Virus record (IMG/VR): IMGVR_UViG_3300042900_000214
Span: 1-33,548 of that record
Length of the DNA stretch: 33,548 nt
Origin: a virus
Strand: one strand, 5' to 3'
Position 1 is the first letter of the stretch; the number at the start of each line of letters is the position of its first letter. This document shows, piece by piece, positions 12,377 to 14,353 of this stretch. A model generated the notes under the pieces. The model saw only the letters and a list, made by a program, of their open reading frames with translations. It did not search any database and was not told the origin of the DNA. The position numbers and the translations under genes are program-made.

Positions 12377-14353
12377 CTAATCAAAGTCCATCCAGTCCGA
12401 TAACGAACTTAACTTATTCATTGCCAAATATCTGAGTGCGTCTATGCAATTATGAACTAATATACCATTAGCAAAATACTCGTGTTCATCTTCAATCATT
12501 AAATCATAAACATTAGCTTGATAGCTTTCTCCTAGCTCTAAGTGCTTTAGCTTTGCAGTTTTGATGACAGTACTTTGTTCTTCCTGTATGTCTTGTTTGA
12601 TATTCTTTTTTACATACTTCGCATACATGTTTATTAAATATTCTTTTAGCATAAATTTCTTTACCATGTTCTGAATGCCACTTTTTACCATCATCTGACT
12701 TATGCCATTCTTTAGCGGATTCAACACCTTTTTCATAAAAAGATTTAAACCATTCAGGATTATTTTTAACCCTTTGCTTACCATGTTCCGATAAATGTTT
12801 ATTGACTTCAATACATTCCAAGTTATTAATATTATTATTCCAAGTATTAGAATCCTTGTGATGTATTTGATAACCTTTAGGCACTTTGCCATTAAATGAT
12901 TCATAAACAACTTTATGTAGTCTATTGCAACCTTTAGAAAAGTATCTTTCTTTTGGGTATAAATAATATTCTTTTCCGTTGAATCTTTGTGTAGGTAAAC
13001 CATTTGACCCGATTTCAATTTTGATATTTGTTTCCATCCTTTAGTAGTTTTTATTTTATGTTCTTTTGTAGAAACTAAAGTTACATTAAAAATATCGTTT
13101 TGTATCGAATAGTTAATAACTTGTTGCAACCCGTTATTAAATACTTTTAAAACTTTCTTATATCCATTTGATGTTAATACTAAATCATTTACTTTTATTT
13201 CATCAATCCTAACTAAACCCTTATTAGTTGTAATTAAAGTTTCTCCTATAAAACAATGGTTATTGTCATCAACAGGCACTTGCATTTTATTTCCATCCCT
13301 ATCAACATCCCAACAATAGTTTCTAAGTTCCTTAATTAAGTTGGTGCTATTCTCAGTTACCTTAAAGTGTATTTCTTGCAATAAAGATATTGAAGCTCGA
13401 ATACTATCAGGTCCTTTCTTAGCTGGACTTACTGAAAAACCTCTACGCCTTAAATCTTCAATCGACTTAGGTTCTGCACTATCCGCAATGATATCTGAAT
13501 ATTCCGATACCCCGAGTTTAATTAGTTTGTCTATAATATCGCTGTTAGTTAGTTTAGTTTGGTATATCAATTCATCGAAGTAATATTCTTGCCCCGATTT
13601 ATAACAAGCTACTAATGCTGTAGGGTCATTTGAATATCCCCAGTCTAAAGAATAAGCAATCAATTCAGCATCCTTTGGTATTGAGGGAGCAATGGACCAA
13701 TTCTCAAAGACCGTTCCTTGTAACGTGCCGATTTCGCCAAGACCATATACACGATACCAGTTTTGCCAATGTTTACTTGTCTTTGCTTTCTCTTTAGCTT
13801 TTAATATAAAGTTCAATGCACTTTCAGGACATGCTTCGTTATCTAAATAATTGATAGTTAAAAAGTCGACATCGTGGTCACCCTTTAATTCTTTGTGAAA
13901 CCAAAATTCGTTAACAGGATTCCAGTCTAAATAAATACCTTTCTTTGTTCGAGCTGCTAATTCAGTATAACTATGCAAGGTCATATTATTGCACTCATTC
14001 ATGTATAGATAATCACGTCTTGCACCCCTTAATTTCGAATCACTATCAGCACTAAAGAACTCAATAACCGATTGATTAGCAAACGTATATTTAAAGTCAG
14101 TACCATTCCACCTATCATCTTGCCAGCGTTTAGTTTCTACCATTATTTTTTTAAAGTCTTTGATTGCACCCCTCTTTAAATGCGGAATAGATTCAGCAAC
14201 AACACTTGTTTCGGTTAAAGGATATTCAGCAGCATCATCTATTAATATTGGCAGAATCCCAAATGTTTTACCAGCACTCGTGCCTCCTTGAATACCTTTG
14301 ACAAATTTAGTTAATTCAAGTATTTTATCAATCGCTGTGGTTCTGAGAAACAT
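12377..14353 (-). CDS. Terminase large subunit, interrupted by an intein
   Basis: The 658-residue precursor is a packaging ATPase-nuclease. Walker A is GGTSAGKT at residues 23-30; Walker B is DYLYMNE at 114-120. The RNase H-like nuclease part has SLDWGYSNDPTAL (first acidic residue), IIADSAEP (second) and the final NNH...CIDALRYLA motif. An intein of 269 residues is inserted inside that last motif, between His366 and the Cys that follows it in the mature protein. Without it the terminase is 389 residues, normal for the family. Splicing is therefore expected to be required for nuclease activity and packaging. The start overlaps the small subunit gene by 26 bases. A second protein, an HNH nuclease, is encoded in another frame within the intein. 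Confidence 0.93.
   Translation of the reverse strand: MFLRTTAIDKILELTKFVKGIQGGTSAGKTFGILPILIDDAAEYPLTETSVVAESIPHLKRGAIKDFKKIMVETKRWQDDRWNGTDFKYTFANQSVIEFFSADSDSKLRGARRDYLYMNECNNMTLHSYTELAARTKKGIYLDWNPVNEFWFHKELKGDHDVDFLTINYLDNEACPESALNFILKAKEKAKTSKHWQNWYRVYGLGEIGTLQGTVFENWSIAPSIPKDAELIAYSLDWGYSNDPTALVACYKSGQEYYFDELIYQTKLTNSDIIDKLIKLGVSEYSDIIADSAEPKSIEDLRRRGFSVSPAKKGPDSIRASISLLQEIHFKVTENSTNLIKELRNYCWDVDRDGNKMQVPVDDNNHCFIGETLITTNKGLVRIDEIKVNDLVLTSNGYKKVLKVFNNGLQQVINYSIQNDIFNVTLVSTKEHKIKTTKGWKQISKLKSGQMVYLHKDSTEKNIIYTQKKDTFLKVAIDYIKLFMNHLMAKCLKVIKYITRILILGIIILITWNVLKSINIYRNMVSKGLKIILNGLNLFMKKVLNPLKNGISQMMVKSGIQNMVKKFMLKEYLINMYAKYVKKNIKQDIQEEQSTVIKTAKLKHLELGESYQANVYDLMIEDEHEYFANGILVHNCIDALRYLAMNKLSSLSDWMDFD
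12449..13255 (-). mobile_element. Class 1 intein in the terminase nuclease motif
   Basis: The intein starts with Cys (CFIGETLITTNKGLVRIDEI, block A), has block B with the T-x-x-H pattern in VSTKEHKI followed by GWKQISKLKSGQMV, and ends with block F (NVYDLMIEDEHEYFANG) and block G (LVHN). The next residue is Cys, the C-extein nucleophile. All residues needed for standard splicing are present: Cys1, block B Thr and His, penultimate His, terminal Asn. It is 269 residues long. The stretch between the blocks, about 130 residues, is Lys/Ile-rich and looks like no protein family because the DNA there is used by the HNH gene in another frame. Confidence 0.92.
12513..13037 (-). CDS. HNH homing endonuclease nested out of frame in the intein
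   Basis: This 174-residue protein is a recognisable HNH endonuclease. An N-terminal block (FNGKEYYLYPKERYF) leads to RLHKVVYESFNGKVPKGY, then QIHHKDSNTWNNNINNLECI with the His-His/Asn metal site, and KHLSEHG. The C-terminus has CEVCKKEY and CHQNC, which look like a zinc-binding finger, followed by a basic tail. It lies in the -1 (+2) frame relative to the terminase-intein frame. TAA two codons upstream of its ATG rules out a simple in-frame fusion, so it should be started independently. Homing nucleases cut intein-free alleles and spread the element. It stops just before block F of the intein. Confidence 0.88.
   Translation of the reverse strand: METNIKIEIGSNGLPTQRFNGKEYYLYPKERYFSKGCNRLHKVVYESFNGKVPKGYQIHHKDSNTWNNNINNLECIEVNKHLSEHGKQRVKNNPEWFKSFYEKGVESAKEWHKSDDGKKWHSEHGKEIYAKRIFNKHVCEVCKKEYQTRHTGRTKYCHQNCKAKALRARRKLSS

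Follow-up and report, generated by a model that had tools for sequence, protein, structure and literature searches.

The gene for the terminase large subunit (TerL) of a phage was found to contain an intein, and a complete HNH endonuclease gene was found inside that intein in a different reading frame. The DNA analysed, referred to here as the window, comprises positions 1 to 33,548 of the IMG/VR virus record IMGVR_UViG_3300042900_000214. The nested gene is real; it is neither a chance occurrence nor a sequencing artefact, and the out-of-frame layout is widespread, not a one-off. The preferred reading, with a probability of about 0.8, is that of a mobile intein whose homing endonuclease would be the product of a separately translated, overprinted HNH gene. 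Splicing, HNH translation, the target and its cleavage are predicted from sequence.

Intein in the terminase gene

The TerL frame was open over all 658 amino acids, with zero internal stops. The following features were located in this frame.

12377..14353, minus strand: TerL precursor ORF, 658 aa, with Pfam matches to Terminase_3C and Intein_splicing, and phrog_2 at E 3e-33
13256..14353, minus strand: N-extein, TerL residues 1-366, with the C-terminal end ...DDNNH; equal in aligned length to the empty alleles L009-L018 and L020
12449..13255, minus strand: intein, 269 aa, Cys1 to His-Asn, delimited by its splicing residues and by comparison with empty sites
12377..12448, minus strand: C-extein, beginning with Cys+1 (CIDALRYLAM...) and including the stop codon; empty alleles mostly have Ala at the Cys+1 position
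12983..13255, minus strand: ordered N-terminal Hint half, intein residues 1-91, block-mean pLDDT 83-95
12449..12568, minus strand: ordered C-terminal Hint half, intein residues 230-269, blocks F/G, block-mean pLDDT 82-93

In the long frame, Pfam detected Intein_splicing (PF14890) with an E value of 2e-11, Terminase_3C with 2e-10, and PT-HINT with 2e-6. The intein extends from Cys367 to Asn635 of the TerL ORF and is followed by Cys636. The full splicing set was present: Cys1, block-B His, His-Asn, and Cys+1. C367, H432, and N635 were invariant in 44 aligned long frames, and C636 was conserved in at least 90% of them. Cys1, Asn, and C/S/T at +1 could be parsed in 102 of the 104 nested cases described below, with a search pattern that itself demanded these residues. 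Sequence marks of an intein were found: a Hint domain with splicing blocks at both ends; the nucleophile, His, Asn, and +1 residues; and a precise insertion with intein-free alleles. The Pfam matches and invariant residues agree with the earlier note on this DNA, which had described a continuous intein with all splicing residues in the terminase frame.

The AlphaFold model of the intein frame was a split Hint fold, in which residues 1-91 and 230-269 were ordered. The middle between the ordered halves, which is the overprinted part, was modelled with low to moderate confidence. The model matched intein splicing domains in the PDB, with a Foldseek E value of 1.4e-7 to the Mtu RecA intein (2imz).

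HNH gene in the overlapping frame

A 174-residue HNH gene was identified within the intein. Its main features are as follows.

12513..13037, minus strand: HNH endonuclease ORF, 174 aa, ATG to TAA; the host frame is the HNH frame + 1
12807..12920, minus strand: HNH_3 catalytic motif (PF13392), HNH residues 40-77, with H59, H60, and N68 invariant in 44 aligned relatives
12555..12623, minus strand: Cys4 zinc-finger-like motif (C139, C142, C157, C161), with 4/4 Cys invariant in 44 relatives

The HNH frame has a TAA two codons before its ATG (TAA AGG ATG) and ends in its own TAA. This stop is formed by the Ala-Asn codons GCT|AAT ahead of Hint block F. Pfam matched the frame to HNH_3 (PF13392) with an E value of 1e-14, and the catalytic motif expected of a homing endonuclease was found with its H59, H60, and N68 invariant. 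The ORF coordinates and the Pfam match confirm what had been noticed earlier, namely a 174-residue HNH in a separate frame with its own ATG and a TAA two codons upstream. The AlphaFold model of the HNH frame was ordered, with a mean pLDDT of 91.5, and its Foldseek match to I-HmuI was weak (E 0.017). The in-frame endonuclease of a maxi-intein was not seen; in the window, as in each of the 104 distinct nested sequences, the HNH was out of frame. Read in the intein frame, the HNH motif region (12807-12900, minus strand) is hydrophobic (TRILILGIIILITWNVL), which might affect intein solubility.

About 37 ordered Hint residues share coding DNA with HNH residues. The shared start codon and the two overlap zones are listed below.

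13035..13037, minus strand: HNH start codon, spanning the Hint Gly-Trp codon pair GGA|TGG; best start context, with an A-ending preceding codon in 74/74 inteins of shared ancestry
12983..13037, minus strand: ordered Hint residues 74-91 over HNH residues 1-18; flat codon-position rates, as with both frames constrained
12513..12568, minus strand: ordered Hint residues 230-248 over the HNH C-terminal helix and stop, from ORF coordinates and structure models

Among 46 ATGs in the TerL gene, the HNH ATG had the top-scoring upstream context. The scoring matrix was built from the 34 gene starts of the window, a small set to which the TerL start itself belongs.

Selection on both frames

The probability of an open host frame was calculated under two null models. 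A random run of the window's base composition would be open with a probability of about 3e-7. Synonymous shuffling of the window HNH gene with its own codon usage, a calculation already proposed in the earlier note, gave 4.5e-4. The shuffle null keeps the HNH protein and its codon usage and is the fairer of the two. The previous estimate of 1 in 100,000 falls between these values and holds only for a given null.

Host-frame stops were counted in 56 nested clusters formed at 70% identity, with expectations from synonymous shuffles of the HNH genes. No stop was observed, against about 200 expected (120.7 for the +1 group and 79.5 for the +2 group). Third-frame control stops numbered 959 against 939 expected in the +1 group and 79 against 70 in the +2 group; the free-standing control (21 clusters) gave 148 against 147 and 424 against 455. 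Chance is ruled out as the source of the open frame, because host-frame stops were absent while the third-frame and free-standing controls matched expectation. These comparative counts are the decisive evidence beyond chance, and they bear out the earlier claim that the terminase frame is held open by selection.

In the middle of the overlap, differences between relatives followed an HNH-coding pattern, with codon position 3 changing fastest. Where the HNH gene lies over the N-terminal Hint half, change rates in the +1 group were flat across codon positions. The codon ahead of the conserved Trp had A as its third base in all 74 distinct inteins (seven amino acids; about 37 expected) and mid-overlap identity was higher for the HNH than for the host frame in 351 of 351 pairs, neither figure being a set of independent counts because nested relatives share ancestry. 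The HNH is under purifying selection, stops in the host frame are selected against, and the internal start codon is conserved.

These results bear on the idea that the HNH-like frame is a decaying passenger, whose protein is no longer made and beside which the intein alone matters. Loss does occur, as in the relative L360, where most of the HNH gene has gone and the intein persists. Decay is quite improbable as the general explanation, given the invariant catalytic and zinc-ligand residues in 44 relatives, the codon-position pattern of the HNH, the retained start codon in the 74 related inteins, and a tract within the HNH gene of the window lineage that was probably exchanged between elements:

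12794..12973, minus strand: HNH tract resembling L087 over the nearest relative L084, with nucleotide identity of 87-90% versus 68-83%; the order is reversed in the exteins

Distribution of the layout

Viral contigs were scanned with the HNH protein, and in each of the 80 best relatives the HNH frame and one further long frame were free of stops (80/80). Further scans were performed with other HNH queries, and one scan covered bacterial and archaeal genomes. Loci were classified with HMMs from our own alignments, whose training sequences came out of those searches. Of 136 distinct HNH segments, 66 were nested at +1, 38 at +2, and 0 in frame; the rest were free-standing, partial, or unclear. 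All 104 distinct nested sequences lay in terminase genes, in phages and in bacterial and archaeal contigs. The contigs were labelled Bacteroidota, Bacillota, Pseudomonadota, Actinomycetota, Patescibacteria, and Thermoplasmatota, and those with bacterial or archaeal labels are probably prophages or binned phage contigs.

The nested HNH was also found in the named phages LS06-2018-MD07 (locus L162), TJE1 (a Tetrasphaera phage; L163), and Highwayman (L164), in whose records terL is the sole annotation over the nested gene. The Highwayman HNH used as a query returned 2 relatives only, and a search of phages with the TerL gene DNA gave short extein matches only. A scan with the intein alignment compared terminase inteins with and without the HNH gene, as the earlier note had proposed; among the 80 best relatives, 79 were nested and one (L360) was a mini-intein without HNH. 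At least three insertion points in the TerL motif were seen, NH|CxDAxRY, DHA|CDALRY, and DHFNDA|CRY (nested loci such as L001, L134, and L115). At locus L263, a second HNH relative lies about 2.4 kb downstream of TerL.

The recurrence of the layout bears on a second explanation, by which the HNH started out as a domain in the intein frame and was moved out of it by paired indels, either ancestrally or in this assembly. In-frame HNH_3 inteins are known in phages, and that of the cyanophage CL131 dCTP deaminase excises itself in E. coli (PMC6293099). In-frame ancestry is nevertheless highly unlikely here. No in-frame member of this HNH clade was found among 281 loci or the 80 best intein relatives, all picked by HNH or intein similarity, a choice that in-frame fusions with very different nucleases would escape. 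The nested HNH genes retain a start and a stop of their own, and the same layout was found in two registers, in many independent assemblies, and in named phage records. An origin from an in-frame gene or from indels in one assembly, which the earlier note had named as a finding that would overturn its reading, is excluded because the layout recurs in more than 100 distinct sequences and in named phage records.

Insertion and mobility

Intein-free alleles were found at the same site. In L009-L018 and L020, the extein was equal in length to that of the window and the insert was absent, which indicates a precise insertion. The DNA identity of these exteins was 91-93%, and 75% for L020. Empty alleles read NNH|AIDAIRY, and occupied ones read NNH|C...HN|CIDALRY. 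Cys+1 probably came along with the intein, because empty alleles mostly have Ala where occupied alleles have Cys. The empty allele of L015 deviates, reading NH|LCDALRY.

Extein identity between L100 and L107 was 27%, and Hint identity was 88%, which establishes, as far as sequence comparison goes, horizontal transfer of the intein between divergent exteins. The HNH enzyme probably spreads the element. Where the fetched locus of a free-standing relative included a terminase gene, the relative mostly started within a few hundred bases of it. In Brevundimonas phage Poludnitsa (L165), an unannotated free-standing HNH gene directly follows terL.

The position of free-standing relatives, which mostly adjoin terL, would also suit an HNH that aids DNA packaging beside the terminase, as reported for HK97 gp74, and has no part in homing; the HK97 HNH works with terminase, as discussed in PMC10448857. 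Such a role is highly improbable for the nested genes. Close exteins lack both intein and HNH at the site, and the HNH is therefore dispensable there; intein and HNH also move between divergent exteins.

Phage group I introns commonly carry HNH ORFs, and removal at the RNA level, with the Hint-like reading secondary, is a further conceivable explanation. It is scarcely credible and was rejected, since no group I intron RNA was matched by Rfam at the gathering threshold in the window, the host frame is free of stops throughout the set and conserves the Hint residues, and that frame is predicted as a Hint fold.

Origin of the arrangement

A quick HNH tree of 98 sequences, weakly resolved, required at least 13 changes among the free, +1, and +2 states. 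Well-supported branches alone forced minima of 4 changes for the +1 group, 4 for the free group, and 2 for the +2 group. Free-standing and nested HNH sequences were interleaved in this weakly resolved tree. The pattern fits repeated entry or exit and is compatible with either direction.

The mini-intein of L360 is 138 aa long, occupies the same TerL site, and keeps an HNH-like start (MDKDFRVEKGADGLPIQQFN) in the other frame. It looks like a deletion product, because the HNH start is retained. The earlier note had proposed that a free-standing HNH gene entered a mini-intein. The nested layout and the selection implied by that proposal were borne out; the direction is no more than plausible. Free-standing relatives adjoin TerL and are interleaved with nested ones, but the tree is weakly resolved and L360, the sole mini-intein found, resembles a deletion product.

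A broader account, to which we give even odds, is that free-standing HNH genes neighbouring the terminase repeatedly entered inteins in the terminase nuclease motif, in two out-of-frame registers. Entry would be in these registers because only there does a gene with its own stop leave the host protein unended. Repeated out-of-frame entry would therefore make overprinting a general route by which an endonuclease is gained, and the main lineage would have borrowed its start from the Hint Gly-Trp codons.

Comparison with known systems and proposed mechanism

No earlier report of an out-of-frame endonuclease within an intein was found in the open-access collection searched, which was covered mostly as titles and abstract openings. 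Fractured genes, attributed to Dassa et al. 2009, reportedly contain split inteins with a free-standing homing endonuclease between the intein halves. The window likewise has a free-standing endonuclease gene between two intein halves. Fractured genes have a split host gene and a split intein, whereas the terminase frame of the window runs unbroken through the HNH gene.

The closest precedent to turn up is the ShiLan domain, which, with the Pacc40 gp60 insertion, is an out-of-frame HNH in phage DNA methylases and has no intein (PMC11855218). As in those genes, the HNH here is hidden in another frame, the host gene is left open, and the distribution is homing-like. No splicing domain was detected in ShiLan or Pacc40 gp60, and the insertion was predicted to be retained in the protein; by contrast, the terminase HNH lies inside a Hint/intein with all splicing residues. 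The window therefore shares the out-of-frame HNH in an open host gene with ShiLan-type insertions, but not the absence of self-splicing domains.

The self-excising CL131 intein also combines a Hint domain and an HNH_3 nuclease in a phage gene, but there the nuclease and the Hint domain belong to one polypeptide (PMC6293099), and the nuclease of the window is a separate overlapping gene. Splicing has been demonstrated for representatives of the mycobacteriophage inteins, which likewise reside in TerL, and active homing endonucleases for two of them (PMC5050341). Those inteins are in the ATPase domain, whereas the present one is in the C-terminal nuclease motif NH|xIDAxRY, with the nuclease overprinted. 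Collaborative homing, and with it a suggested path by which group I introns became mobile, has been described (Bonocora and Shub 2009 and Zeng et al. 2009, both as cited in PMC2814812; concept in PMC10448857). It resembles the present case in that a free-standing endonuclease lies beside a gene whose splicing element occupies the target site. It has been described for introns, whereas an intein and an overprinted gene are involved here.

Under the preferred reading of a mobile intein with an overprinted endonuclease, the intein sits within the terminase nuclease motif, and the complete HNH gene overprints the intein loop in another frame, in place of an in-frame nuclease domain. The TerL frame would be translated through, and the intein should excise itself and restore the terminase. 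The HNH would be translated separately from the internal ATG in the conserved Hint Gly-Trp codons. In co-infection, the enzyme should cut intein-free terminase genes, and repair would copy intein and HNH together. The location of the insert suggests the empty terminase site as the homing target. A complete HNH gene that carries a stop codon of its own would presumably be tolerable only out of frame.

One stretch of phage DNA would thus give rise to two proteins that are predicted to fold separately, a splicing domain and an endonuclease sharing codons at both ends. Expression of the nuclease would be uncoupled from that of the host protein. The arrangement offers a testable model for the gain and loss of endonucleases by inteins, and it points to a class of homing genes overlooked by gene finders and annotation, as in the TJE1, Highwayman, and LS06-2018-MD07 records.
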